Position numbers and translations under genes: made by a program
Shown: piece after piece, positions 5,850-55,835 of the stretch
Numbering within the stretch: the stretch's first letter is position 1
Layout: each line of letters opens with the position of its first letter
The notes under the pieces: model-generated
Told to the model about the DNA's origin: nothing
Database searches by the model: none
The model's input: only the letters and a program-made list of their open reading frames with translations
Source of the DNA: Parolsenella catena
Lineage (GTDB): Bacteria; Actinomycetota; Coriobacteriia; Coriobacteriales; Atopobiaceae
Assembly (NCBI RefSeq): GCF_003966955.1
Contig: NZ_AP019367.1
Span: 682,001-746,000 of the forward strand
Length of the DNA: 64,000 bases
Direction: 5' to 3'

Positions 5850-7331
5850 ATGCGCCAGGGATTCGACAACGACAAGTACATCGAGCTGCAGGCCGAGCAC
5901 ATCCGCGAGCGCATCGCCCAGTTCGGCGGCAAGCTCTACCTCGAGTTCGGCGGCAAGCTGTTCGACGACTACCACGCGAGCCGCGTGCTGCCCGGGTTCG
6001 AGCCAGACTCCAAGTTCCGCATGCTCAAGAGCCTCGCCGACGACGTCGAGGTCATCATCGCCATCAACGCCAACCACATCGAGAAGAACAAGGCGCGCGG
6101 CGACCTCGGCATCACCTATGACGAGGACGTCCTGCGCCTCGTGGACCTGTTCCGCGGCCAGGGGTTCGCCGTGGCCGCCGTCGTGCTCACGCAGTACGCC
6201 AACCAGCCTGCCGCAAACGTCTTCCGCGCCCGCCTGGAGTCGCTTGGCATCGCCTGCAAGCTGCACTACCCAATCGAGGGATACCCTCATGACGTCGACC
6301 TCATCGTCTCGGAGAGGGGCTACGGCAGAAACGAGTTCGTGGAGACGACGCGCCCGCTCGTGGTCGTGACGGCGCCCGGCCCCGGCTCGGGCAAGCTCGC
6401 CACGTGCCTGTCGCAGATCTACCACGAGCACGAGCACGGCGTGGAGGCCGGATACGCCAAGTTCGAGACGTTCCCGGTGTGGAACCTGCCGCTCACGCAC
6501 CCGGTGAACATCGCCTACGAGGCCGCCACCGCAGACCTGGACGACGCCAACATCATCGACCCGTTCCACCTCGACGCCTACGGCAAGACCACGGTGAACT
6601 ACAACCGCGACGTCGAGGCCTTCCCCGTGGTGCGCGCGCTCATGGAGAGGATCCTGGGCGAGAGCCCCTACCAGAGCCCCACGGACATGGGCGTCAACAT
6701 GGTGGGCTTCGCCATCACAGACGACGAGGCGTGCCGCGACGCGAGCCGCATGGAGATCGTGCGCCGCTACTTCCAGGCTGCCGTGGGCGTCAAGCGCACG
6801 GGCATGGGCGCCGAGCAGGTCGACCGCCTCGAGCTCATCATGAAGAAGGCCGGCATCGACAAGAACTACTCGCCGGCGCGCTCCGCAGCCCTCACGAAGG
6901 AGCAGGTCACGGGCTCGCCGGTGGGCGCCATGGTCATGCCTGACGGCTCGGTCGTCACGGGCAAGACCTCGACGCGCCTGGGCGCGGCCAGCTCGCTGCT
7001 CATGAACGCGCTCAAGGTGGTCTCGGGCGTGGACATCGAGCTCGAGGTCATCTCGAACAGCGCCATCGAGCCCATCAGCTACCTCAAGACGCACTTCCTT
7101 GGGTCTTCCAACCCGCGCCTGCACACGGACGAGACGCTCATGGCGCTCTCCATCACCTCGGCCACCGACGAGGTGGCGGCCCGCGTGCTCGATGGCCTCG
7201 GGCAGCTGCGCGGCTGCGACGCGTTCTTCTCGGTCATCATCTCCGCGACCGACGAGCAGGTGCTGCGCCGCCTGGGCATCAACGTGTGCTGCGAGCCCAA
7301 GTACGAGCGCACGGGCATCTACCACAGGTAA
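5850..7331 (+). CDS. DUF1846 (UPF0371) family protein
   Basis: The 493-residue protein belongs to the DUF1846 family, found in many anaerobic Firmicutes and Actinobacteria. Recognisable stretches are the N-terminal GFDNDKYIELQAEHIRERI, the nucleotide-loop-like TAPGPGSGKLATCLSQIYHE (about 173-192) and NFEVTF-type glycine-rich blocks further on (GVNMVGFAITDDEACR). The molecular function is not settled. The P-loop-like GPGSGK suggests phosphate or nucleotide binding, which is inference. GAGGGAGG precedes the ATG. A perfect hairpin repeat follows the gene. Confidence 0.85.
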   Translation: MRQGFDNDKYIELQAEHIRERIAQFGGKLYLEFGGKLFDDYHASRVLPGFEPDSKFRMLKSLADDVEVIIAINANHIEKNKARGDLGITYDEDVLRLVDLFRGQGFAVAAVVLTQYANQPAANVFRARLESLGIACKLHYPIEGYPHDVDLIVSERGYGRNEFVETTRPLVVVTAPGPGSGKLATCLSQIYHEHEHGVEAGYAKFETFPVWNLPLTHPVNIAYEAATADLDDANIIDPFHLDAYGKTTVNYNRDVEAFPVVRALMERILGESPYQSPTDMGVNMVGFAITDDEACRDASRMEIVRRYFQAAVGVKRTGMGAEQVDRLELIMKKAGIDKNYSPARSAALTKEQVTGSPVGAMVMPDGSVVTGKTSTRLGAASSLLMNALKVVSGVDIELEVISNSAIEPISYLKTHFLGSSNPRLHTDETLMALSITSATDEVAARVLDGLGQLRGCDAFFSVIISATDEQVLRRLGINVCCEPKYERTGIYHR

Positions 7332-7406: not shown

Positions 7407-8228
7407 ATGGCCTTTGAGATCATCGCGCTTGACATGGACGGCACGCTGCTTGACTCGCGCAAGCGTGTGCTGCCAAGCTCCGTCGCCGCCGTCGAGCGCG
7501 CGGCTGCGGCCGGCAAGACCGTCGCGATCTGCTCGGGCCGCTGCCCGGTCATGGTCACGAAGTACCGAGACGAACTGCCGGGCGTGCGCTACGCCATCTG
7601 CTGTGCCGGCGCCATGATCTATGACATGGAGCACGACCGCGTCGTGGACGAGACGAACCTCGATCCCGCGTTCATCTCTCACGCCCTGGACGTGGCGGAG
7701 GAGGAGGGGTTCTTCCTGCTCGAGGTCACGAGCGGCACGGGCATCTACATGCAGGCGGACGAGATGTCCCAGGCCGCGCGCTGCGGCGTGGGCATCTACG
7801 AGCAGCTCTACCACGAGACGTCCACGGTCATCGCCGACGCTCACGCGTTCGCGCGCAGGCCCGACGTGCTCCAGTCCAAGCTCAACTTCCACTTCGCGGA
7901 CGTCGCCGCGCGCGACCGCTGCCGCGCCCGGCTCGAGGGCTCGGGCGTGGTTATCACGAATTGCGAGCGCTCGAGCATGGAGTTCTCGGCCCCCGGCATC
8001 GACAAGGGCGTGGGCCTGGCCAGGCTCGCAGCGCTGCTCGGCGTGCCCGAGTCGTCCACCATCTCGGTGGGAGACGCCGAGAACGACCTGGCCATGCTGC
8101 GCTCGGCGGGCCTTGGCGTGGCCATGGGAAACGCGCTGCCCTGCGCCGTGGAGGCCGCCGACGTCCAGGTTGCCGACAACGACCACGACGGCGTGGCCGA
8201 GGCGATCGAGCGCTACCTGCTCGCATAG
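7407..8228 (+). CDS. HAD-IIB (Cof-type) phosphatase
   Basis: The 273-residue protein is a Cof-family haloacid-dehalogenase phosphatase, probably acting on sugar phosphates or similar small metabolites. Motif I is DMDGTLLDS (about 9-17). Motif II is ICSGR with T/S, motif III the lysine near SKLNF (about 150), and motif IV GDAENDLAML (about 225-234). The ATG at 7407 follows GAGGGGG. The same frame is open from 7341, but that part is the hairpin repeat and was excluded. The substrate is not predictable from sequence. Confidence 0.88.
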   Translation: MAFEIIALDMDGTLLDSRKRVLPSSVAAVERAAAAGKTVAICSGRCPVMVTKYRDELPGVRYAICCAGAMIYDMEHDRVVDETNLDPAFISHALDVAEEEGFFLLEVTSGTGIYMQADEMSQAARCGVGIYEQLYHETSTVIADAHAFARRPDVLQSKLNFHFADVAARDRCRARLEGSGVVITNCERSSMEFSAPGIDKGVGLARLAALLGVPESSTISVGDAENDLAMLRSAGLGVAMGNALPCAVEAADVQVADNDHDGVAEAIERYLLA

Positions 8229-8279
8229 GGACCAGAGGGGACGGGTCCCTCTGGTCCCGGACCAAACGAACCCGTCCCC
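8228..8279. repeat. REP-like compound palindrome
   Basis: GGGACCAGAGGG (8228-8239) pairs with 8247-8258. The inner GGGGACGGGT (8237-8246) can alternatively pair with ACCCGTCCCC (8270-8279). The two pairings are mutually exclusive. The left arm starts inside the HAD stop codon. No T-run follows, so it is better described as a repeat than a terminator. Confidence 0.75.
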
Positions 8280-8342
8280 TTTGGCGCCATCCTGGCGGCA
8301 TCATTAATTTGGCGTGAAGTGCGCGCGGAGCCGCCCGTGCGG

Positions 8343-8351
8343 TGCTAGGAT
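8343..8351 (+). promoter_or_regulatory. Extended -10 promoter for pyrG
   Basis: TGC followed by TAGGAT (8346-8351) forms an extended -10 element 53 bases before the pyrG ATG. No convincing -35 box is visible. It lies just after the REP-like element, in the only stretch of this gap that looks like a promoter. Confidence 0.4.
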
Positions 8352-8370
8352 AAAGACCCGTAGAAAGTAG

Positions 8371-10053
<1,683 letters not shown>

Positions 10054-40328: not shown

Positions 40329-40481
40329 CGCGGTCGTGTTCGATGCTCTGCCCAGCACTGCGGCCATCCGCCATATCGCTGCCGCTCGTCCGCAAATCCG
40401 CACGCGCCCGCCGCATCGTCACCGTCTTCCGCCCGTCGAAGGCAACACTAGAACCCAGGGGACTCATTGGGAGGGAGCGTC

Positions 40482-41534
40482 ATGGACGTCTCGTTTGCGC
40501 ACTTCATGGCCCAGGTGGTGTCGAGCCCGCCGCTTGCGCTCACCACGCTGCTCACGCTCGGCGTCATCTTCGTGAACGGCTGGACTGACGCCCCCAACGC
40601 CATCGCCACCTGCGTCACGACGCGCTGCATGCCCGTGAAGCCCGCGATCATCATGAGCGCGGTGCTCAACTTTGCCGGCGTGCTCGTCATGACGCACTTC
40701 AACGCAAGCGTGGCCGCCACCATCTCCAACATGGTGGACTTTGGCACGGACACGCAGACCGCGCTCATTGCGCTGTGCGCCGCGCTGTTCTCCATCGTGG
40801 TCTACAGCGTGGCGGCCTCGGTGTTCGGCATCCCCACGAGCGAGAGCCACAGCCTCATCGCGGGCCTCACGGGTGCGGCCATCGCCATCCAGGGCGGCAT
40901 GGACGGCGTGAACGCCAGCGAGTGGGTGAAGGTCATATACGGGCTGGTCATGAGCCTGCTTCTGGGCTTTGCGATCGGCTGGCTCACGTGCAAGCTCGTG
41001 ACGCTGCTCTTTGCCGGCGCGGACCGCAGACGTTCGGACGGCTTCTTTCGCTACGCCCAGATCGCGGCTGCGGCGGCCATGAGCTTCATGCACGGCGCGC
41101 AGGATGGCCAGAAGTTCATCGGCGTGCTGTTCCTGGGCGTGGCGCTGTGCAATGGTCAGCCGGGCGTGGAGGGCGTCGTGATTCCCGTGTGGCTCATGCT
41201 GCTGTGCAGCCTCACGATGGGCGTGGGCACCAGCGTGGGCGGCGAGCCCATCATCAAGAGCGTGGGCATGGACATGGTGAAGCTCGAGAAGTACCAGGGC
41301 TTTGCCGCAGACCTCGCAAGCTCGCTGTGCCTGCTCGTGATGACCGAGCTGGGCATCCCCGTGTCCACGACGCACACCAAGACGAGCGCCATCATGGGCG
41401 TGGGCGCGGTGCGCAGGCTCTCCGCCATCAACTTTGGCGTGGTGAGGGACATGATGCTCACGTGGGTGTTCACGTTCCCGGGCTGCGGCCTCATCAGCTT
41501 TGCCATGGCAAAGCTCTTCATGTTCCTGTTCTAG
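40482..41534 (+). CDS. PiT-family inorganic phosphate transporter
   Basis: This is a single-component phosphate symporter. The 350-residue membrane protein has about ten helices. The duplicated PiT signatures are NGWTDAPNAIATCVTTRCM (about 27) and SFMHGAQDGQKFIGVLFLG (about 203), and VSTTHTKTSAIMGVGAVRR (about 294) is the second-half loop. It is the short form of the family, near 330-350 residues. GGGAGGGAG at 40470-40478 fixes the ATG at 40482; the frame is open from 40467. The DUF47 partner follows. Confidence 0.92.
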   Translation: MDVSFAHFMAQVVSSPPLALTTLLTLGVIFVNGWTDAPNAIATCVTTRCMPVKPAIIMSAVLNFAGVLVMTHFNASVAATISNMVDFGTDTQTALIALCAALFSIVVYSVAASVFGIPTSESHSLIAGLTGAAIAIQGGMDGVNASEWVKVIYGLVMSLLLGFAIGWLTCKLVTLLFAGADRRRSDGFFRYAQIAAAAAMSFMHGAQDGQKFIGVLFLGVALCNGQPGVEGVVIPVWLMLLCSLTMGVGTSVGGEPIIKSVGMDMVKLEKYQGFAADLASSLCLLVMTELGIPVSTTHTKTSAIMGVGAVRRLSAINFGVVRDMMLTWVFTFPGCGLISFAMAKLFMFLF

Positions 41535-41586
41535 CGGATGCGCGGCGGCCGGCGCTCCGGCGCGCCGTCTTCGAGAGGGGCCAGCG

Positions 41587-42210
41587 ATGGCGAGAAAGGC
41601 AGACAGCTTCTACTTCGACAACTTCAACGCCTGCGCCGAGAACAACTGCCGCGCGGCGCGGCTGCTTGAGCAGGTGATGCGCGAGTACGATCCTGACGGA
41701 CTGCAGGCGCGCATCGACGAGATGCACGAGCTCGAGCAGGCAGGCGACGAGCTGCGCCACGAGCTGCTGGACTGCGTGCTCACGGCCTTCATCACGCCCA
41801 TCGAGCGCGAGGGAATCGTGGCGCTCTCCGCCCGGCTCGATGACGTCACCGACTACATCGAGGGCGTGCTGCACCGGCTGTACTACAACAACGTTCGCGA
41901 GCTCACGGCGGGTGCGCTCGAGATGGTGACGCTTCTGGTGCGCGCGTGCGACGAGGTGCGAGACACCGTGGCCGAGCTGCCGAACTTTCGCAAGTCCAAG
42001 ACGATGCACGACCACATCGTGGCCGTGAACACGGTGGAGGGCCTGGCCGATGACGTGTTCGTGCGCATCATGCGCGAACTGCACACGAGCGAGACGGACG
42101 CCGTTCGCCTCATCGCCACGCGCGAGACCTATCAGTACCTCGAGTATTGCGTCGACGCCTGCGAGCACGTGGGCGACGAGGTCATGGGCATCGTGATGGA
42201 GAACAGCTAG
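41587..42210 (+). CDS. DUF47 (PhoU-like) accessory of the Pit transporter
   Basis: The 207-residue helical protein belongs to DUF47, relatives of PhoU encoded beside pit genes and thought to modulate the transporter. Visible features are the helical N-terminus FYFDNFNACAENNCRAARLL, E..GDELRHELLDCVLTAFITP with IEREGIVALSARLDDVTDYI (about 48-90), and a C-terminal EYCVDACEHVGDEVMGI. E/D residues in the DDVTD and EHVGDEV segments fit metal binding. GAGAGGGG precedes the ATG. Confidence 0.87.
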   Translation: MARKADSFYFDNFNACAENNCRAARLLEQVMREYDPDGLQARIDEMHELEQAGDELRHELLDCVLTAFITPIEREGIVALSARLDDVTDYIEGVLHRLYYNNVRELTAGALEMVTLLVRACDEVRDTVAELPNFRKSKTMHDHIVAVNTVEGLADDVFVRIMRELHTSETDAVRLIATRETYQYLEYCVDACEHVGDEVMGIVMENS

Positions 42211-42457: not shown

Positions 42458-42751
42458 ATGGATGCCATCTACTCGGCAACAATGCTCAGAGACAGACCTC
42501 GCGAGGTGAAGGAGGCCGCGAGGCACAATCTCGTGCGCATTACCGAGAACGGAAACGGCGCGTTCGTCTTTTGCTCCGAGGAGATTTATCGCGAGAAGAT
42601 CGCGGAGGCGGCCGAGCAAGCCGCCTATGAGACTCGCGTCTCGATGGGCATCGAAAGAGGCCGAGCCGATGTCGCTGCCGGTCGGGTCTTTGACGGCTCG
42701 CTTGACAACCTGTTTGCCGAAGCCGAGCGCAGGGCTGTTGCACATGGCTAG
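42458..42751 (+). CDS. Phd/YefM-like antitoxin
   Basis: The 97-residue acidic protein fits a type II antitoxin. Its N-terminal half (SATMLRDRPREVKEAARHNL, then VRITENGNGAFVF) resembles the Phd/YefM DNA-binding fold. The C-terminal half is a charged helix expected to wrap the toxin. GAGGAGC precedes the ATG. It overlaps the downstream gene by 8 bases, the usual arrangement. Identification rests on size, order, overlap and the toxin-like partner. Confidence 0.65.
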   Translation: MDAIYSATMLRDRPREVKEAARHNLVRITENGNGAFVFCSEEIYREKIAEAAEQAAYETRVSMGIERGRADVAAGRVFDGSLDNLFAEAERRAVAHG

Positions 42752-43013
42752 GCTCGTCATAACTGAAGGCTTCGTTGACGACCTCTCGCAAGTCTGGGCT
42801 GCGCGCGTCTCGAAGAGGATTCGCGAGTCTCTGGAAAACCTTGAGACATACTCTGAGCTTTGGTCAACACTTCTGCCTGTGAGGATGAGAAAGACATACG
42901 GTGAGTCGGTCAGAAGATTGACGGTCGCTCCGATTGATGCGATCTACGAATTTGATAGGGGCACGGACTGCGTGTATGTCTATGCACTGGTTTCCTGCAG
43001 GAGGATGCGCTAG
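42744..43013 (+). CDS. RelE/ParE-like toxin
   Basis: The 89-residue basic protein has the RelE/ParE superfamily layout: two N-terminal helices (VDDLSQVWAARVSKRIRESL), then a strand-rich C-terminal half (VRRLTVAPIDAIYEFDRGTD, then CVYVYALVSCRRMR). RelE-type toxins cut mRNA on the ribosome and ParE-type toxins poison gyrase; which one this is cannot be decided by eye. It is translationally coupled to the antitoxin. The operon faces the 21-residue repeat gene with a 15-bp gap. Confidence 0.65.
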   Translation: MARLVITEGFVDDLSQVWAARVSKRIRESLENLETYSELWSTLLPVRMRKTYGESVRRLTVAPIDAIYEFDRGTDCVYVYALVSCRRMR

Positions 43014-43028: not shown

Positions 43029-43346
43029 CTAGTCCTCGTAGTGGTTCCAGCGATCGAACAGGCCGGGGTTGCTGTGGCCGGTCCTGCGACCATCCGCGTC
43101 GTAGTGGTTGACGGCCCCGAACAGGCCGGGGCGTGAGCTGCCCGTCTTGTGGCCGTGGTCGTCGTAGTGGTTGTAGGTGCCGAACAATCCAGGCCTGCTC
43201 GTGCCGGTGCGATGCCCCTGGGCATCGTAGTCCACCATTGAGCCAAACAGCCCCGGCCGGCTCACACCCACGCGATGGCCGTGCTCGTCATAGTGAACGA
43301 CGCTGCCGAACATGCCCTGCCTGCTATAGCCCTGCCGAGAGCCCAT
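43029..43346 (-). CDS. Small protein of 21-residue tandem repeats
   Basis: The 105-residue protein is almost entirely repeats of a 21-residue unit with core HYD..GHR.G.SRPGLFG: about five units in which aromatic, Gly and Arg positions are fixed and two or three others vary. The DNA shows the matching 63-bp periodicity. AAAGGAGG just before the ATG at 43346 shows that translation is intended. There is no signal peptide or membrane helix. I do not recognise a function; the pattern suggests a beta-hairpin repeat, perhaps a binding or structural protein. Confidence 0.7.
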   Translation of the reverse strand: MGSRQGYSRQGMFGSVVHYDEHGHRVGVSRPGLFGSMVDYDAQGHRTGTSRPGLFGTYNHYDDHGHKTGSSRPGLFGAVNHYDADGRRTGHSNPGLFDRWNHYED

Positions 43347-43429
43347 GCTGGCCTCCTTTGCGATGCGGACCGATGCCCGTTTGCGCAAGTGTAGGGGAGA
43401 TTGCGGACAATAACATTTGTCTGCAGCAC

Positions 43430-44683: not shown

Positions 44684-45364
44684 CTATTTCTCGCCCTTCT
44701 GACGGTACTTGTCGATGAAGGAGCCGTCTTCGGCTCTCCATGTCTTCCAACCGTTGTTGGCGCGGCCGAGCACGACCCAGGAGGCCGTGGACGGGGCCCT
44801 GCACGTGACGTCCTCCTGGAGAATGTTGCCGGAGATCCTCGCGGTCTTCCTCGGCTCGGGAAGCCACACCCCCTCCTTCGAGGGGAGGCACTCGGCCCCC
44901 GCCTTCACGGTGAAGTCCCCGCCCCTGGCGACCATCGTCGCCCTGGCGGTCCCCTCCTTGGTCTTCTTCTCCATGTGATAGGTGCCGTCGGGGATGCGCG
45001 ACCAGTCGTCCTTCACGCGGCGCTCCTCGGTGGCCTGGTCGAACGAGTCCTCCTTGGACTCCTGCTCGGGGTAGACCTGCCTGCCCTCGAGCGAGGAGAG
45101 CAGCTGGATCACGAGGTCAACGTCGAGGGCGAAGAGCTCGGAGTTGGGCACGCACGACTTGGAGAAAATCTCGTCGAGCAGGGCCTCCTTCTCGTCGTAG
45201 TCCTCTACCTCGATGGCGAAGCGCCTCTTGAGGCCGACTACGTTGAAGTAGCCGTTCCTCTCAAGGTTGTACATGCGCTGCTCGAAGTTCGAGCTGCCCG
45301 TCTTGCCGATTTTCACGAGCCCCGGCACGACCGTCGTCATGACGTAGATGATTCCCCTGGGCAC
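44684..45364 (-). CDS. GIY-YIG (T5orf172-like) nuclease with DUF4357 domain
   Basis: The 226-residue protein has an N-terminal GIY-YIG fold of the T5orf172/MUG113 type: GIIYVMTTVVPGLVKIGKTG (about 4-23), then Arg in FEQRMYNLER and Glu in the KEALLDEIF helix. The C-terminal ~85 residues (from SRIPDGTYHM) match DUF4357: variable core, then WVVLGRANNGWKTWRAEDG. DUF4357 domains occur on many defence nucleases. The start is GTG at 45364 with GGAGG correctly placed. Target and trigger are unknown. Confidence 0.75.
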   Translation of the reverse strand: MPRGIIYVMTTVVPGLVKIGKTGSSNFEQRMYNLERNGYFNVVGLKRRFAIEVEDYDEKEALLDEIFSKSCVPNSELFALDVDLVIQLLSSLEGRQVYPEQESKEDSFDQATEERRVKDDWSRIPDGTYHMEKKTKEGTARATMVARGGDFTVKAGAECLPSKEGVWLPEPRKTARISGNILQEDVTCRAPSTASWVVLGRANNGWKTWRAEDGSFIDKYRQKGEK

Positions 45365-45437
45365 ATCGTCCTCCTCGCGCTTACTGTTCTTGGGATCCGA
45401 TTATCGCACCGTGGGGCCTGGATCATTTGCTTCTCCT

Positions 45438-46424
45438 CTACGCCGGCCACCAGATGCGGGTGAGCGGCAGGATCGAGCGGGTGTCGTCGTCTGCCCTGTC
45501 GTAGACCTCGACGTAGTGGCGCACGAACGCGTCCAGGTCGAGCAGACGCACTGGGACGTTGGCGCGGTCGGCCTCGTAGCGGGCCTCCTTGGTGAAGCCT
45601 CCCGTGGAGACGTAGAGCCCGCGGTCGCCCGCGCGCAGCCCGCCTATGAACGAGCGGACCGCCGGCGCGCCCATGGCGCCCTTGCGGTGCTTGACCTCGG
45701 CCACGATGCGCGGGCTCTCCAGTCCCAGCGCGTCGGGCGACGCCACGACGTCGCGGCCTCCGTCGGGGCCCTTGGGCATGACGCGGGCGCAGTACCCCAT
45801 GGCTCTGAGGAGCCCCGCCACCAGGCGCTCCATGTCCTCCCAGTCGAGCTGGCCCACGCGGTCCTTTATGAGCTCGATGCCGTTGTCGTAGGTGGCCGCG
45901 AGCGACTCCTCGTCGCTGGCGGCGCCGTCCTCTGGCGTCGCCGCCTCGTACGCGGGCCGCCCGCCCGAGGCGGACTCTAGGTCGGCCATGACCGCGTCGG
46001 ACACGGAGAAGATGGTCTGGATGCCCCCGAGGGAGTTCCTCGACTCGGGCGCGAGCGCGTCGCGAGGGGCGGTCCTGCCCCACCTGACGTGGCGGGTGTA
46101 GGTGACGGCATCCGGCTCGTCGGCGGCGACGCATGGCCCCGAGACCTCGCCCATGTGGTAGAGGCGCTCGGCCGGGTCGTACATGACGACCGTGGAGCCC
46201 TGCGCCATGGAGTGGGCGAAGCGGTAGACCTGGCCGACGTTGGCCGCGACCCTCTGCTTGCTCTCCGAGGGGTGGGCCGACGCGTAGGCCTCCCGGATCT
46301 GCTCGCGGCCCATGGCGGCGATGTCGGCGCCGCCGAAGTCCCAGCCTATGCCTATGACGCCGCGGGCGAGCCAGTCTGCCGCGTACGCCCCGCCGCGCCC
46401 TGCGCGGATCATCCATGCGCCCAT
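45438..46424 (-). CDS. Mrr-type restriction endonuclease
   Basis: The 328-residue protein has a C-terminal Mrr_cat PD-(D/E)xK domain. LDWEDMERLVAGLLRAMGYC is followed by the catalytic GPDGGRDVVASPDALGLESP, IVAEVKHR (E.K) and GLYVSTGGFTKEA. Mrr-like enzymes cut modified DNA. The N-terminal ~130 residues (MIRAGRGGAYAADWLARGVI, GIGWDFGG, YDPAERLYHMGEVSG) look like a PUA/EVE-type domain that would read a modified base; that part is inference. The ATG at 46424 follows AAGGCAGG. It is divergent from the type I operon. Confidence 0.8.
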   Translation of the reverse strand: MGAWMIRAGRGGAYAADWLARGVIGIGWDFGGADIAAMGREQIREAYASAHPSESKQRVAANVGQVYRFAHSMAQGSTVVMYDPAERLYHMGEVSGPCVAADEPDAVTYTRHVRWGRTAPRDALAPESRNSLGGIQTIFSVSDAVMADLESASGGRPAYEAATPEDGAASDEESLAATYDNGIELIKDRVGQLDWEDMERLVAGLLRAMGYCARVMPKGPDGGRDVVASPDALGLESPRIVAEVKHRKGAMGAPAVRSFIGGLRAGDRGLYVSTGGFTKEARYEADRANVPVRLLDLDAFVRHYVEVYDRADDDTRSILPLTRIWWPA

Positions 46425-46657: not shown

Positions 46658-48271
46658 ATGGCTCGCAAAGCCGTCAAAAAGGACAAAGAATTATCTCTCG
46701 AACAAGCTCTGTGGAACTGCCGTGTCGCGCTTCGTGGCGTGGGCAGCATGGAGAAGAACAGGGACGCCGTAATCAGCCTCGTGTTTCTCAAGTTCGCTGG
46801 CGACAAGTTCGAGACCAGACGCCAGGAGCTCCTCGAGCAGTATGGGGACATCCCAGTGTTTCTCGAGAAGCCGTCATTCTACAATGCCGCAAATGTCTTC
46901 TACCTTCCGGAGGAGGCTCGCTGGTCCTACATCCTTGACCACGCCGCTTCAAATGGCATTGCCGTCATAATCGACACTGCGATGAGTGAGGCCGAGAGGG
47001 CAAACCCCTCGCTGAAGGGCGCCTTGCCCCTCGGCCTCTTCTCTACGCTGGGTGCCTCTGCGACGTCTATCAAAACTTTGATAGACGCTATCGCGCAAAT
47101 CAGTGAGAAGCGTTTCCACGAGCAAGATCTTATCGGAAGGGTCTACGAGTACTTTCTCCAGACGTTCGCCGTTGGCAGTTCAAAGGAAGACGGTGAGTTC
47201 TACACGCCGGCCTGCGTGGTTGAGCTTATCGCTGAACTCATCGAGCCTTATGAGGGCGTAGTCTACGACCCGTGTTGTGGATCTGGCGGCATGTTCGTGC
47301 AATCGCACAAGTTCGTGGAGCGTCACCATGGCAACAGCAGTGCAATTTCGGTTGTTGGACAGGAGTCCAATCCCGATACATGGCGGCTGTGCAAGATGAA
47401 CCTCGCGATTCGCGGTATATCGAACAACCTTGGGGAGAGGGCAGTCTCGACTTTTACGATGGACCAACATCCTGACAAGAAAGTCGACTTCATCATGGCA
47501 AACCCGCCGTTCAACCTCAAGAACTGGCGCGGGGAGGACGAACTCACTAAGGATCCACGCTGGACTGGCTATCCAGTGCCTCCTGTGTCCAATGCGAACT
47601 ACGCATGGATATTGCACATGCTCTCGAAACTCGACGTAAACCATGGTGTCGCCGGATTTCTCCTCGCCAACGGAGCGCTCAACGCGGATGGCGACGAAGG
47701 AGAGATTAGGCAGAGAATCCTGGAGAACGACAAAGTCGAGGCCATCATCGTTCTACCGCGCGACATGTTCTACACGACTGATATCTCCGTGACCTTGTGG
47801 ATTCTGAATATGAACAAGGGCGCTTGCGAGCAGGGTGGCCGTCATCTGCGCGACCGCCGTGGCGAGGTGTTGTTCGTTGATCTGCGCACGTGGGATGAGA
47901 ACATCGAGAAGTATACGTACGATAAGGGCAAGAACAAAAAGAAGACGGTATTGACCACGGAGCAGATCTCCCGCGTCAAGTCCATTTTTGAAGACTGGCG
48001 CTGCGTCGACGGTGGCTATGAGGACGTTCCCGAGTTGTGCAAGTCCGTTCGCGTCAAAAGCGACGACCCCGAGGAACTCACCATCGAGAGTCGCGGGTAC
48101 TCACTTGCGCCGAGCAAGTACATCGAATTTGTGGACCACGACTTGGACATCAATTACGAGAAGGAAATGGGACGTATCCAGGATGAGATGAAGCAATTGC
48201 TAACAACCGAGAAGAAGTCCCAGGCCATGCTTGCAGCTGCGTTTGAGGGTATCGGCTATGGGATTGAATAA
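46658..48271 (+). CDS. hsdM: Type I restriction-modification methyltransferase subunit
   Basis: HsdM methylates adenine at N6 as part of the type I complex. The 537-residue protein has an N-terminal helical domain (ALWNCRVALRGVGSMEKNRD). SAM motif I is VVYDPCCGSGGMFVQ (about 206-220), and the catalytic motif IV is MANPPFNLKNW (Asn about 282). EFYTPACVVELIAELI (about 186) is the conserved block before motif I. Its stop overlaps hsdS by 14 bases. Codon use is more AT-tolerant than in the flanking core genes, in keeping with acquisition. Confidence 0.95.
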   Translation: MARKAVKKDKELSLEQALWNCRVALRGVGSMEKNRDAVISLVFLKFAGDKFETRRQELLEQYGDIPVFLEKPSFYNAANVFYLPEEARWSYILDHAASNGIAVIIDTAMSEAERANPSLKGALPLGLFSTLGASATSIKTLIDAIAQISEKRFHEQDLIGRVYEYFLQTFAVGSSKEDGEFYTPACVVELIAELIEPYEGVVYDPCCGSGGMFVQSHKFVERHHGNSSAISVVGQESNPDTWRLCKMNLAIRGISNNLGERAVSTFTMDQHPDKKVDFIMANPPFNLKNWRGEDELTKDPRWTGYPVPPVSNANYAWILHMLSKLDVNHGVAGFLLANGALNADGDEGEIRQRILENDKVEAIIVLPRDMFYTTDISVTLWILNMNKGACEQGGRHLRDRRGEVLFVDLRTWDENIEKYTYDKGKNKKKTVLTTEQISRVKSIFEDWRCVDGGYEDVPELCKSVRVKSDDPEELTIESRGYSLAPSKYIEFVDHDLDINYEKEMGRIQDEMKQLLTTEKKSQAMLAAAFEGIGYGIE

Positions 48272-49385
48272 AGTAAAACTTGGGGAGCTTATTGCTCGCT
48301 CTGATAAAAGAAACGTCGAGAACAGATATAGCGTTGGCTCTGTCCGTGGCCTTTCTGTTGAAAAGGTATTTATTCCGACGAAGGCGGACATGAGAGGTGT
48401 CTCGCTGAAACCCTACAAATTGGTTGAGCCCGATTGGTTCGCATACGTAACGATTACCTCGCGTAATAGCGACAAGCTTACGATTGCTCACAATACGTCG
48501 GGAAGCAGCTATATTGTCTCCTCTTCTTATGAGGTGTTCTACGTCCAGGATTCCAGTCGTTTGGATTCAGCCTACCTATTCATGTTGTTCAATCGTGCCG
48601 AATTCGATAGATATGCTCGTTTTAATTCTTGGGGGAGTGCGCGCGAGGCATTTTCATGGAAGGATCTTTGCGACACCGAAATCGAATTGCCGCCAATCGA
48701 GATTCAGCGAAAATACGTTGCCGTCTATGAGGCGATGCTGGCCAACCAGCGGGCTTACGAGAAGGGACTCGACGACCTAAAGCTGGCGTGTGATGCGTTT
48801 ATCGAAAGGCTAATGAGCGAGCTTCCTCATGAAGCTATCGCTCCTTATATAAGCCGCAAAGCAGACAGGAATAGGGACCGAGAGCAAGAGCTTGATAGGG
48901 TTCTGGGGCTTAGTACTAAAAAAGAATTCAGGGTTCCTCAGAGTCGTGTCAACAAGAAAGAACTTGGGAATTATAAGGTGGTCGAACCTGGGGATATAGC
49001 TTATGTTCCAACGACGGACACTTGGAAGGTTCTGGCTTTTGCAGTAAACAACCAAAATACCGCCATTGTCGTCTCTCCGATATACGAGGTCTTTTCAGTC
49101 GACAAGATGAAGCTACTCCCCGAATATCTAGGGGCTTTCTTGCGCAGGAGCGAATTCGATCGGTATGCGCGTTTCTCGTCATGGGGGAGTGCCCGAGAAA
49201 ATTTTACTTTTGAGGAGATGAGAGACATCCGAATTCCAATACCAGAAATTGGGATTCAAGAGGTTGTGGTCAATCTGTCAAATGCAGTCCGTGAAAGAAG
49301 GATGATTTGTACTTGGCTCAAAAACCAGCTCAAATTAATCTGTCCAATTCTCGTTAGAGGTGCAATGCAGGAGGCTATGAACTAG
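48258..49385 (+). CDS. hsdS: Type I restriction-modification specificity subunit
   Basis: HsdS recognises the bipartite DNA target. The 375-residue protein has two target-recognition domains, each ending in a conserved helical stretch. The ends repeat: EFDRYARFNSWGSAREAFSW (about 115-134) and EFDRYARFSSWGSARENFTF (about 305-324), each followed by E/D-I-P-E-I-Q helices. The start (ATG 48258) is inside the hsdM end. This half is distinctly AT-rich, as usual for hsdS. The stop overlaps the next gene by one base (TAGTG). Confidence 0.9.
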   Translation: MGLNKVKLGELIARSDKRNVENRYSVGSVRGLSVEKVFIPTKADMRGVSLKPYKLVEPDWFAYVTITSRNSDKLTIAHNTSGSSYIVSSSYEVFYVQDSSRLDSAYLFMLFNRAEFDRYARFNSWGSAREAFSWKDLCDTEIELPPIEIQRKYVAVYEAMLANQRAYEKGLDDLKLACDAFIERLMSELPHEAIAPYISRKADRNRDREQELDRVLGLSTKKEFRVPQSRVNKKELGNYKVVEPGDIAYVPTTDTWKVLAFAVNNQNTAIVVSPIYEVFSVDKMKLLPEYLGAFLRRSEFDRYARFSSWGSARENFTFEEMRDIRIPIPEIGIQEVVVNLSNAVRERRMICTWLKNQLKLICPILVRGAMQEAMN

Positions 49386-50296
49386 TGAAGAGGCGTCTCT
49401 TTTCTCAACGTTACGATGCCTTGGACCGCATCAGTGAAACTGACCTTGGCGATGGACTTACCGATAATGTAACGCTCGAAGTCAAAAGGCGCCTTGCTGA
49501 TGTGATGCTTGACTTTTGCGAACCTCTCCGTGTCAAGTCAAGTCGATATGACAATACCACTTACGAGACCGATGCGCTGTCCCTTGCAATCGAAGACTTG
49601 AATGACACTATTGGCTATAACTTATTCAGCCTCGGTTATATGACATATAGTTATGACGAAGCAGCTGTCCTAACAAACGTTTTTACACCCCACCTCTTCG
49701 ATATCATTGAGCTTCAATACGATGAGCTTTCCGATGACGTAGAAAACGGAAAAGAAGGATTCCGCAAGGAAATCAATCGTGTTTTCCAGGAGCATGATTG
49801 CCCTTGGTTATTTACTGATGGACGTCTGGTCAAGGTCGATGCCAAGCAATTCGAACTGGACTTGAAACTCAAGGCAATCGAAAGAATGCAGGAGCTTAGA
49901 GACGCGAATCCCCTCTACCAGGGGGCCTACGACGAGCTGAGGAAGGCCGTCGACTTCCTGGGACGAGGAGACTATGCTGAAGCTGTGATTAATGCTGGGA
50001 AAAGCTACGAGAGCGTCCTCAAGGTTATCTGCGGACCAGGAGCTGAGACGGAGTCGGCCAACGGCCTTATAAAACGGCTGCTTGAGTCCGACAAGTTATC
50101 CCTTCCAGAGAGCCTCAAGCCCGAGGCTTTTCAGAATAGCGTTCTTCTGTCTTTCCCTATCATTCGTAACAAGGTGGCGGCACACGGTTCCGGTGCGACT
50201 GAATGCGAGATCAGCGCCCCGATGGCCAACCTTGCCGTCAACCTGGCGTGCGCTCTCGATACCTATCTCATCCAAGAAGCGACTGACATAGAGTAG
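49385..50296 (+). CDS. HEPN/Abi-C-like protein embedded in the RM operon
   Basis: The 303-residue protein has a helical N-terminal domain of unknown type (about 1-170) and a C-terminal helical domain resembling the abortive-infection C-terminus. YAEAVINAGKSYESVLKVIC (about 198-217) is followed at about 261-267 by RNKVAAH, an R-x5-H motif of the HEPN kind. HEPN domains with R-x4-6-H are often RNases in toxin and abortive-infection systems. It resembles proteins annotated as STM4504/CBY_0614 family. Its place between hsdS and hsdR, with one-base overlap, means it is made together with the RM system. Confidence 0.65.
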   Translation: MKRRLFSQRYDALDRISETDLGDGLTDNVTLEVKRRLADVMLDFCEPLRVKSSRYDNTTYETDALSLAIEDLNDTIGYNLFSLGYMTYSYDEAAVLTNVFTPHLFDIIELQYDELSDDVENGKEGFRKEINRVFQEHDCPWLFTDGRLVKVDAKQFELDLKLKAIERMQELRDANPLYQGAYDELRKAVDFLGRGDYAEAVINAGKSYESVLKVICGPGAETESANGLIKRLLESDKLSLPESLKPEAFQNSVLLSFPIIRNKVAAHGSGATECEISAPMANLAVNLACALDTYLIQEATDIE

Positions 50297-50302
50297 GCAA
50301 GA

Positions 50303-53300
50303 ATGAAATCGTCGGACAGCAAATTCGAAAACAGCAAATTCACTGAAGGTGAGCTTGAGCAGGCAATCATCAAGCTGTTCCAGCAGCAGGACGCCAATGG
50401 CGTGCGTTGGAGCTATGCTAACGGCGAGTTGCTGCACCGTCGCTTCGATGAGCCACTCATGGAGGACCGGTTGAAGTCGAGCCTTCGACGCCGCTATGCC
50501 AATATCGACCTGACCGAGGGCGAGCTCCAGACGCTCGTGGGCGAGCTCAAGCGTGTCCCCTCGACCCCGCTCTACGACGGGTGCCGACGAGTGTTCTGGC
50601 TCATCAACGAGGGGTACACACTTTCTCGAGAGGACACAAACAAGTCTGCCGTTCATATCGAGTACATCGACTTCGACGACATCGCCAACAACGACTTCCT
50701 CATCGTGAACCAATACACGGTCGAGGACGTGCGCACCCGCCGCCCCGACCTTTTGTGCTTCGTGAACGGCATACCGCTCGCCATCCTCGAATTCAAGACC
50801 GCCATAGAGGAGGATAAGACCATCCACGACGCGTGGAAGCAAATCGCCATTCGCTACGCGCGTGACATCCCAAGTCTGCTCAAGTACTGCTGCATCGCCG
50901 CGGTCAGCGACGGCGCCAACAGCAAGATTGGCACCGTGTTCACTCCGTACTCGTATTTTTCGCCTGGAACAAGGCCAATGACCTCGACAAGGTGTCGAAC
51001 GGCATCAATTCCCTTTACACCATGGTCGAGGGCGCGTTCGCGCCCGCCCGCTTCCTGGCAATCGTTCGCGACTTCGTCTTCTTCCCAGACGACAGCAAGA
51101 ACTCCACTGAGATAGTCTGCCGCTACCCGCAGTACTTCGCAGCGACGAAGATGCTCGACAACATCTGCGAGCACCTGCGTCCCGAGGGCGACGGCAAGGG
51201 CGGTACGTACTTTGGCGCCACTGGCTGCGGCAAGACATACACCATGCTCTTCCTCTCGCGTCTGATGATGCTTCGACGCAGCGAGGAGCTGGGCAATCCT
51301 ACCATCGTGCTTATTGTTGACCGCGAGGACCTGGATAACCAGACAAGCGAGTTGTTTGTGACCGCGAAGCGGTTCCTGCACGACGAGAATGTGCGCAGCA
51401 TCGAGACGCGCGGCGACTTGGCGGAGACGCTGCGTGGGCGCGAATCGGGTGGCGTTTACATCACCACTATCCAGAAGTTCAGCGAGCAGATGGGTCTTCT
51501 TTCCAACCGCTGCAACATCATTTGCATTTCCGACGAGGCGCACCGCACTCAGACGGGCGCGGGCTCTAAGCTTATGATCACCGAAGAGGGTGCCTTCACC
51601 CGCTTCGGCTTCGCTAAATACCTGCGCGACGGATTCCCGAACGCGACGTACGTCGGATTCACGGGTACGCCCATCGACGAGACGATTGCCGTGTTCGGCC
51701 CAGTTGTGGACCGCTACACCATGAAAGAGTCGAGCGACGACGGGATTACCGTGCGTATCGCTTATGAGCCTAGGTTGGCGCGAGTGCTCCTTTCCGATGA
51801 CGAAGCGAAGAAGATCAAGGAGTACTACGACCGCTGCGCCGAAGAGGGCTCAACCGAGGATGCCATCAAGGAGAGCCAACGCGCCATGAGCTCGATGGAG
51901 GTGCTGCTACGCGATCCCGACCGCCTGAAGAAGCTCGCAGCCGACATGGTCGAGCACTACGAACGCCTCTGTGGGGAGAAACCAGGCGTGGTACAGAAGG
52001 CCATGATAGTGTGCTCGAATCGCCCCCATGCCTTCGACCTGCTCAACGCCATCCTGGCCATACGACCCGAATGGGGCGTTGCGAAGAAGGCCGAGAACGA
52101 GAGCAGGCTATTGCCTGAGCGACTGGAGGAGCTTGAGTCGCTGCCCAAGATTAACATCGTGGCCACGCGTGGCAAGGACGATCCGAGGGACCTCTTTGAC
52201 GCCTGCGGCAACAAGGAATGGCGCAAGAAGCTCGACAAGCAGTTTAAGAACAACGATTCAAACTTCAAGATCGCCGTCGTCTGCGACATGTGGATTACCG
52301 GCTTCGACGTTCCCTCGCTTGCCGTCATGTATATCGACAAGCCGTTGCAACGCCACACGTTGGTGCAGACCATCAGCCGCGTAAACCGCGTGTTCGAAGG
52401 CAAAGACCAGGGCCTAGTGGTCGATTACTTCGGCATCAAAGAGAACATGATGAAGGCGCTCAAGACCTACGGCGGTGACGATTCCGGTGCTATCGACGAT
52501 TTGACCGTTGCCCTGGGCATCTTCCGTAACCATCTGGCCATGATTGACGACCTCATGACTAATTTCGATTCGAGTGCCTTCCATATGGGTAAACCGCTCG
52601 AGCGCCTTGGATGCCTGAATAGGGCCGCCGAGTACGTTCAGCTCTCGAAGGAATTTCAGACGCGATTCATGGGGCTTACGCGCATTCTGAAGTCTGCATA
52701 CCAAATCTGCTTTCCCTCGGGAGAACTATCCGACCACGAGACCGCGATGTCTCAGTTCTACATGGCGATTCGTTCCATCGTCTATAAGCAGACCAAGGGC
52801 GATGCGCCCGACGCCGAGATGATGAACGAGGTTGTGGAGGACATGGTGCGGCGGGCAATCAGCTGCACGGGCGTTGAGAGCGTGATTGACGTTGACGGAC
52901 CCGAGGATCTCTTCGGCGAAGATGCAATCGCTGAGCTTAATGCCATGAAAATGCCTATTACCAAGTTCAATGCCCTCATGAAGCTGGTCAAGAGGGCCAT
53001 TAGAGATTACGGACGTACCAACAGGGTTAAGGCCCTCGATTTTGATGAGCGCCTGAGAAGGGTCGTCACTGAGTACAACTCTCGCGACAACCTGACCTTC
53101 GCCAGCGAGGTCGTGTCTGACTTTGTTGACAGCCTGTCTGACCAGCTCGTTGACATTCTCCGGGATCTAAAAGACGACGAACGATCCTTCGAGAAGATAG
53201 GGATCACCTACGAGGAAAAGGCATTCTACGACATCTTGGTTAAGGTTCGCGATGACCATGGATTTGTCTTTGAGGATGAGAAGTGTGTGGCGCTCGCCAA

Positions 53301-53496
53301 GGAAATCTCAAAGCTTGTGAGTGACAAAGCACAATACGCTGACTGGTCGACACGCGATGACATCAAAAGCCAGCTGAACATGGATCTTACCGTGATGCTC
53401 TACAAGAATGGATACCCACCCGAGTGGGATGAGGAGGTCTTCGAGAAGGTTATGGACCAGGCGGAGAACTTCAAGAAGAACGATACGTTTAAATGA
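50303..53496 (+). pseudogene. hsdR: Type I restriction endonuclease subunit, frameshifted
   Basis: HsdR is the translocase-nuclease of type I systems. The first frame (from ATG 50303) holds the PD-(D/E)xK nuclease: RRPDLLCFVNGIPLAILEFK with Asp about 149 and E.K about 166-168. It leaves the correct frame at the five-T run 50956-50960 and stops at 51115. The continuing frame picks up FAWNKANDLDKVS and runs to 53496 with Walker A GATGCGKTYTM and DEAH-box SDEAHR. One extra T would restore TAT TTT TTC GCC (Tyr-Phe-Phe-Ala) and a full protein of about 1063 residues. It may be a recent loss, a phase-variable site or a sequence error. Confidence 0.9.
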
Positions 53497-55325: not shown

Positions 55326-55835
55326 ATGACCAACGGCGATTACGACAAGGTCGCGACGCATTGGACCAGCAAGGAGACCGATGTGGTCCGGATGCCCGAG
55401 GCCGAGCTGCGCGCCGAGGTCGACGCCTTTCTTTCCTCGCACAACACGTGCACGCTTGTCTGCGGGGCGGGCGACTTCGTGCGCTGCACCCCGCTGGAGT
55501 ACGTCTGGCGCGACGGCTCGTTCTGGATCTTCTCGGAGGGTGGCCTGAAGTTCTGCGCGCTCAAGTGGAACAAGAACGTGAGCCTTGCCGTGTTCGAGCC
55601 CTACGGTGGCTTTGGCAAGCTTGCGAGCGCCCAGGTCACGGGAACAGCCGAGCTCATTGATCCCGAGAGTGACGAGTTCGCAGAGGCGGTTGCGGCCAAG
55701 GGACTTCCTGTCTCGGCCCTGCCTAAGCTTCGGGGCATGCTCCATCTCATCCGCGTGACGCCTTCACGCATTGACTATCTCTGCAGCGAGTTCAAGTCCC
55801 GCGGCTTCGACTCTCGTCAGTGGATTGAACTGTAG
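55326..55835 (+). CDS. Pyridoxamine-5'-phosphate-oxidase-like flavin-binding protein
   Basis: The 169-residue protein has the split-barrel FMN-binding fold of the PNPOx-like superfamily: FLSSHNTCTLVCGAGDFVRC (about 35), PLEYVWRDGSFWIFSEGG with KFCALKWNKNVSLAVFEP (about 56-95) and ASAQVTGTAELIDP (about 101). The size is that of small oxidoreductases reducing nitro or quinone-like substrates with F420 or FMN, rather than vitamin B6 synthesis. The substrate is unknown. It converges on the truncated AIM24 gene. Confidence 0.75.
   Translation: MTNGDYDKVATHWTSKETDVVRMPEAELRAEVDAFLSSHNTCTLVCGAGDFVRCTPLEYVWRDGSFWIFSEGGLKFCALKWNKNVSLAVFEPYGGFGKLASAQVTGTAELIDPESDEFAEAVAAKGLPVSALPKLRGMLHLIRVTPSRIDYLCSEFKSRGFDSRQWIEL

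Follow-up and report, generated by a model that had tools for sequence, protein, structure and literature searches.

The chromosome of Parolsenella catena carries, beside a set of type I restriction-modification (R-M) genes, two genes for putative nucleases, and their position raises the question of whether they belong functionally to that system and what kind of DNA they would attack. The locus was examined within a window, by which we mean the whole 64,000-nt stretch of DNA analysed (assembly GCF_003966955.1, contig NZ_AP019367.1, positions 682,001 to 746,000). We consider it probable that both genes encode add-on nucleases of a restriction island, and that the Mrr-type protein is a modification-dependent (type IV-like) enzyme that would cleave the DNA of modified phages.

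Layout of the island

The first-pass annotation had described a pair of nucleases, unlike in fold and divergent from the type I genes, and both halves of that description hold. The two nuclease genes lie on the minus strand, with the GIY-YIG/DUF4357 gene 73 nt downstream of the Mrr gene, whereas hsdM, on the plus strand, begins at 46658 (Table 1); the predicted folds are PD-(D/E)XK for the Mrr protein and, with weaker support, GIY-YIG for its DUF4357-bearing neighbour. The gene starts at 46424 (Mrr) and 45364 (GIY-YIG) coincide with the onset of similarity to relatives, and a longer Mrr reading frame with a TTG start (46538) was rejected as unsupported by those relatives. The next gene after hsdR, also on the plus strand, is of the Schlafen/AlbA type.

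Table 1. Coordinates of the island features in the window; domain and fold assignments are predictions.
Feature	Coordinates	Strand	Remarks
GIY-YIG (T5orf172/MUG113-like) + DUF4357 protein	44684..45364	-	226 aa; PADLOC PDC-S57
DUF4357 match, residues 181-214	44723..44824	-	overlapping RAMA model below cut-off
EVE-Mrr: Mrr-type restriction endonuclease, EVE/YTH-like N-terminal domain	45438..46424	-	328 aa; PADLOC PDC-S02
Mrr PD-(D/E)XK catalytic domain, residues about 178-321	45462..45893	-	
Mrr N-terminal reader domain, residues 1-157, predicted EVE/YTH (PUA-superfamily) fold	45954..46424	-	
hsdM, type I methylase subunit (HsdM_N + N6_Mtase)	46658..48271	+	ORF intact
hsdS, specificity subunit	48258..49385	+	probable start; ORF listed from 48231
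AbiJ_NTD4-type protein, nested between hsdS and hsdR	49385..50296	+	
hsdR first part (HSDR_N)	50303..51115	+	
hsdR second part (SWI2/SNF2 motor + C-terminus)	50992..53496	+	other frame

The G+C content is 0.72 for the Mrr gene, 0.63 for the GIY-YIG gene, 0.47-0.57 for the hsd, AbiJ and Schlafen genes and 0.66-0.67 for the flanks, a contrast that suggests separate origins for the genes of the island. A sister species (G001) has the same chromosomal flanks, its counterparts of the genes at 40467-41534, 41500-42210 and 55326-55835 being 93%, 99% and 90% identical (the last with one internal stop), and holds a different type I system inside them (HsdM 40% and HsdR 30% identical). Neither nuclease was found in G001 between those shared flanks, and a broken Mrr copy lies elsewhere in that genome, adjoining another type I system. 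The island looks like a hotspot with exchanged content.

Several further features of the island deserve mention in their own right. The hsdR gene (50303-53496) is split into two overlapping frames, and because another type I hsdR in this genome (locus L136, 9951 onward) also spans two frames, the cause may be either an assembly error or genuine decay; given the split, the system for which the nucleases would serve as a back-up may be inactive. The AbiJ_NTD4 gene gave sub-threshold DUF7014 and Abi_C matches, and its place inside the hsd locus is reminiscent of guard genes such as prrC. At 43029-43388, on the minus strand, an ORF of 119 aa consists of repeats around YDxxGHRxGxSRPGLFG, and the left end of the island is formed by a short gene pair (42458-43013), the second member of which is a sub-threshold ParE match kept at 93% identity in G001.

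The two predicted nucleases

The Mrr reading frame matches the Pfam model Mrr_cat with an E-value of 5.1e-26 (91.5 bits, cut-off 21) and the PADLOC family PDC-S02 with 249 bits over nearly its full length. Thirty-three relatives, 31 of them from bacterial and archaeal genomes and two from viral contigs, align with it from end to end at 38-80% identity, and relatives of the GIY-YIG/DUF4357 protein share 47-71% identity with the window protein, which together exclude chance. Throughout the alignment of 34 sequences the catalytic residues D225, E243 and K245 are invariant (34/34), and the catalytic part is classed from its sequence as a PD-ExK site with membership of Mrr_cat. Searches of PDB sequences with both proteins and both family profiles returned nothing usable; in an AlphaFold model built from the 34 sequences (mean pLDDT 87.8, pTM 0.52), the catalytic half (residues about 178-321) aligned with AF1548, MspJI and AspBHI at Z-scores of 11.3-12.5 by VIA-align, and the best Foldseek matches of the whole model were MspJI and AspBHI.

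That the Mrr protein might carry a reader domain for modified bases had been proposed in the first-pass annotation together with a call for structure prediction, and the prediction bears the proposal out, as the modelled N-terminus resembles base-reading folds. Residues 1-157 aligned with the EVE protein PH1033 (Z 11.9, rmsd 2.6, 115 aligned residues), the EVE domain of VcaM4I (6yex; Z 10.9, rmsd 3.2, 122 aligned) and the YTH domain of YTHDC2 with m6A DNA (Z 10.4, rmsd 2.9, 120 aligned), and with EVE and YTH structures overall at Z 9-12. VIA-align rows within about 1 Z count as tied, so EVE and YTH are indistinguishable for this domain, which is predicted to adopt the EVE/YTH beta-barrel fold of the PUA superfamily.

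At the sequence level the link to EVE appears weak. The Pfam EVE model found no match in the N-terminal domain of the window protein, and at E-values up to 10 it matched 4 of 31 family members, the best at 0.033 and below the cut-off; the domain is filed here as EVE/YTH-like, outside Pfam EVE membership. A profile comparison with 14 EVE domains gave a probability of 84% over 38 columns, against 0.5-2% for controls made of the Mrr catalytic part and the GIY-YIG family. Among the aromatic residues, W28 is present in 33/34 and W115 in 34/34 sequences, and Y82 and Y89 are also conserved; in VcaM4I, the pocket residues are given as P24, W82 and Y130 (PMC7897488).

Our own HMM of the reader domain found the same module within six proteins of related genomes (whole-sequence E 3.7e-15 to 4.4e-21; domain E 7e-15 to 2.8e-20) that we read as McrB-like. 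Pfam identified AAA_5 in all five of those scanned, two of which also carry Mrr_N and one a Pfam EVE domain. All six retain W28 and W115 but lack Y82 and Y89. Adding these copies to the reader-domain profile raised the probability of its match to the EVE domains to 91% over 58 columns, and a profile of the six alone scored 4% against EVE. One module shared by Mrr and McrB-like enzymes would fit a specificity domain of type IV restriction.

Relatives of the EVE-Mrr protein occur in bacteria and in at least one archaeon (Methanobrevibacter, L062). Twenty-nine plasmid records held an Mrr match, ten of them over at least 80% of Mrr, and two of the 29 were examined in detail; two plasmid records held a partial GIY-YIG match. 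In three distinct coriobacterial loci (L045, L004 and L070, the last on the same contig as L006), Mrr is followed on its own strand by a gene of 306 aa.

The second protein exceeds the Pfam cut-off for DUF4357 (42.3 bits against 38.4), as do all six relatives scanned (40-58 bits), and matches PADLOC PDC-S57 at 331 bits over nearly its full length. For the other half, the MUG113 score of 18.7 lies under the cut-off of 22.3; T5orf172 exceeds its cut-off of 20 in two of the six relatives (L033, 41.2; L152, 32.9), and at the Pfam limits used the remaining four gave no GIY-YIG model. Tyr7, Arg30 and Glu76 are invariant in two alignments of five and three sequences. In a model from only three sequences (pLDDT 77), the best nine VIA rows were Slx1, HIGLE and EF2693 (Z 4.8-6.2), which we take to be GIY-YIG structures; Foldseek alone returned no match to this model with E up to 0.001. 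Together these results lend the GIY-YIG assignment weak support. The RAMA model overlaps DUF4357 below its cut-off of 35.2 (the window protein scores 22.8 and the six scanned relatives 18-27), which makes this region a sub-threshold candidate for a second reader; the absence of RAMA among the fold matches listed for the protein excludes nothing. The DUF4357 half also gave weak Spindlin-like matches, at Z about 3, which are not believed.

Neighbourhoods of relatives and rival explanations

Thirteen loci with a GIY-YIG/DUF4357 gene, the window included, were compared, leaving aside G115 (fragments with stops), L085 (32% identity over 60 residues) and L036-L041 (weak DUF4357-side matches). A type I, type III, ISP-like or similar R-M system was found near the gene in 11/13 loci: type I in four (the window, L102, L148 and L149), type III in three (L084, L147 and L152, the last with Res alone found), single-chain ISP-like in three (L103, L104 and L091, of which L103 and L104 share one genus and are not fully independent), and an Eco57I methylase with a ResIII helicase in L146. 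ISP is our label for single-chain methylase-helicase proteins; in PADLOC that of L103 is named as a restriction enzyme-methyltransferase of IIG or type I. No R-M system was found at L150 and L151, and at L151 a GmrSD_N-HNH gene adjoins the GIY-YIG/DUF4357 gene. Some of the reference proteins came from these same loci; Pfam and PADLOC checks cover L084, L091, L102, L103, L146-L149 and L152, while L104 rests on similarity to L103, and for L150 the search used these references alone.

The arrangement is in places that of an operon. L148 carries on one strand hsdM and, after about 1.1 kb of unassigned sequence, hsdS, the GIY-YIG gene, a Schlafen gene and hsdR, with 4-nt overlaps on both sides of the GIY-YIG gene if leftmost start codons are taken. 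In L149, which has two hsdS genes, the gene is placed after the second of them and before hsdR, which it touches, and in L084 it follows res by 36 nt; in L147 it is on the opposite strand. L152 (genome G412) holds Res, a diverged Mrr and the GIY-YIG/DUF4357 gene on one strand.

Some side observations belong to these loci. A degraded GIY-YIG fragment, recognised by eye, lies between the two hsdS genes of L149 near the intact gene (6635-6877 and 8109-8807), as if an hsdS-GIY unit had been duplicated. Between Mrr and the GIY-YIG/DUF4357 gene of L152 lies a gene of 358 aa (1172-2248) whose start looks GIY-YIG-like by eye and which had no Pfam match at E up to 1e-4. The short loci L036, L037 and L038, with weak DUF4357-side matches, each also hold an HsdM-like gene.

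For Mrr, 41 loci were counted (L043-L083, including partial and broken copies, several with shortened flanks). An HsdM- or HsdR-like gene occurs in the flanks of 22, and none was found in the other 19 within their flanks, some of them shortened. The HMMs used for HsdM, HsdR and HsdS were our own iterative models, which also catch IIG methylases and SNF2 helicases; seven large proteins were checked with PADLOC, which called six IIG-like and one (L045) HmaA, and those of L137 were checked with Pfam. The 22 loci thus include IIG-type methylases and two helicases (one tested, HmaA) and are not all type I. An R-M gene lies on the same strand within 150 nt of Mrr in six of the 41 (L046, L052, L053, L056, L062 and L064). 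The genome of the window has three PF02384 matches at two places in 1.8 Mb, from which we estimate, without a control, that a random 17-kb stretch would touch PF02384 in roughly 3% of cases. A Proteus plasmid (L137, 3976-10999) carries an MmeI-like methylase, a DEAD helicase, a T5orf172 GIY-YIG protein and an EVE-Mrr protein, and the same four-gene cluster recurs in two Rhizobium genomes (L052 and L053) with Mrr at varying positions in the order. We considered the GIY-YIG protein of this cluster as a partner of the window type and rejected it, as no significant BLAST similarity was found (best E 0.029 for the L137 protein).

That relatives of both proteins often adjoin restriction systems suggests a back-up against phages with modified DNA. 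The chief alternative, which we take seriously and on balance doubt, is that each nuclease is a defence gene acting on its own, linked in function neither to the type I system beside which it landed nor to the other nuclease. A conserved Mrr/GIY-YIG pair was sought and not seen among 120 relatives, where close matches to both proteins occur in the window's own genome only; the non-orthologous type I system of G001 sits between the same flanks with neither nuclease; and the systems that adjoin Mrr relatives differ (type I, IIG-like, Hma-like), with none found in 19 of 41 loci. Against independence stand the GIY-YIG/DUF4357 genes within the hsdS-hsdR stretch of L148 and L149 and directly after res in L084, the six Mrr genes closely following or preceding an R-M gene on their own strand, and the one-strand group of L152. 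Much less probable, in our judgement, is that mobile DNA carries the GIY-YIG/DUF4357 protein as a homing-type or DNA-binding factor and that it is no defence nuclease. The T5orf172 model takes its name from a phage DNA-binding domain, DUF4357 has been reported with T5orf172 and with GIY-YIG (PMC4619093), two of the 13 loci are viral contigs, and both sequence and fold give the GIY-YIG half weak support; against this, R-M genes are near in 11 of the 13 loci, both viral contigs included.

We retain as probable the reading in which both proteins are accessory nucleases of the restriction island. The EVE/YTH-like domain of the Mrr protein would flip out and bind a modified base, the PD-ExK domain would cut the DNA nearby, and the enzyme would thereby act on phages whose modified DNA lets them evade the adjacent type I system. 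For the GIY-YIG/DUF4357 protein, the likeliest role is that of a further accessory nuclease of R-M systems with a helicase motor, and DUF4357 may be its DNA- or mark-binding part. More broadly, and only tentatively, PDC-S57 and PDC-S02 could be interchangeable accessory nucleases of R-M operons rather than free-standing defence genes. On that view, type I, type III and ISP-like systems, each with a helicase motor, would take up GIY-YIG/DUF4357, twice between hsdS and hsdR; R would kill unmodified DNA and the accessory nuclease wrongly modified DNA, so that a single operon would bar the escape of phages with modified genomes.

Base specificity and known systems

The first-pass annotation had reasoned that a modification-dependent Mrr enzyme beside an active methylase must avoid the host's own mark, and this fares unevenly. 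A search of this genome for PF02384, PF02086, PF01555 and cytosine-5 methylases gave three PF02384 (type I-like) enzymes and a C-terminal fragment of a cytosine-5 methylase; PF02086 and PF01555 had no match. The PF02384 enzymes are presumably adenine methylases that make 6mA, so that a reader of cytosine marks would be compatible with this genome and a general 6mA reader would conflict with it. To that extent the reasoning stands, there being no full cytosine-5 methylase found here. Among seven genomes with a near full-length Mrr (at least 28% identity: G000, G044, G021, G056, G035, G054 and G028, leaving out as broken G029, G001 and a second G044 copy), however, three (G021, G056 and G035) keep a cytosine-5 methylase, or four if the fragment of this genome is counted, against 64/120 overall with fragments included. 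Avoidance of cytosine-5 methylases by Mrr carriers is thus not visible, seven carriers being few, and a broad 5mC specificity is weakened. An alternative to specificity is also on record, in which a methyl-dependent nuclease is silenced by a resident methylase (PMC8989522).

Such silencing, or recognition in a particular sequence context, would let the Mrr enzyme coexist with its host even if its reader recognised 6mA in the manner of a YTH domain, a reading that we think unlikely. YTH domains do rank near EVE domains (Z 9-10.4), and the YTH-type domain of Thermococcus gammatolerans McrB reads 6mA in DNA (PMC7641849, PMC12707154). EVE nevertheless stands slightly above YTH by Z, within the range that counts as tied, and the relatives adjoin several kinds of N6-methylases, with which a general 6mA reader would conflict. 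For this last reason a modified cytosine is slightly favoured over general 6mA as the base that the Mrr protein would read.

If the proposed roles are right, R-M operons of several types carry built-in nucleases against modified DNA. This would explain why two uncharacterised candidate defence families recur beside R-M operons, both of them open to simple phage assays, and the Mrr branch of the type IV enzymes would then include EVE/YTH-like reader domains, in bacteria generally and in at least one archaeon. We found no report in the literature of an activity for members of the EVE-Mrr or GIY-YIG/DUF4357 families. Among the matches listed from the open-access literature, none mentioned PDC-S57, none dealt with T5orf172 together with restriction-modification, and no title or abstract presented GIY-YIG/DUF4357 as a gene of R-M operons.

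The nearest described enzymes share parts of this architecture. The putative type IV endonucleases termed EVE-PD(D/E)XK (PMC7641849) likewise join an EVE-like PUA domain to a PD-(D/E)XK nuclease in a restriction context, whereas the window domain lies below the Pfam EVE cut-off and its nuclease is of the Mrr_cat subtype; the word Mrr was not found in the main text of that article. Besides these fusions, the article describes EVE proteins that stand alone next to type I systems, and it argues that marks made by HsdM go unrecognised by EVE. VcaM4I, an EVE-HNH modification-dependent endonuclease (PMC7897488), also places an N-terminal EVE fold before its nuclease, which is HNH rather than Mrr. 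MspJI and AspBHI (PMC12707154) have the same order, with an SRA-like reader at the N-terminus and an Mrr-like catalytic domain at the C-terminus, and their catalytic halves align with that of the window protein at Z 11.3-11.7; their active site is QxK and that of the window protein ExK, and the best listed matches of the window N-terminus are EVE and YTH, SRA being still possible. GIY-YIG-RAMA fusions, possibly 6mA-dependent (PMC11037411), resemble the second protein in joining a GIY-YIG-like part to a C-terminal domain with a weak RAMA match, but in the window protein RAMA is below cut-off and DUF4357 is the significant match. A parallel in gene content is the immigration control region of Escherichia coli (hsd, mrr, mcrBC; PMC12707154), also a variable island with conserved flanks that combines a type I system with an Mrr-type enzyme, although the reader of EcoKMrr is a winged helix and that of the window Mrr is predicted to be EVE/YTH-like. 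Both enzymes of the window are thus assigned to known kinds, and PADLOC already lists both families as candidates, with PDC-S02 and PDC-S57 as near full-length matches entered without a functional description; the part worth following is that their relatives recur beside, and sometimes inside, R-M operons.
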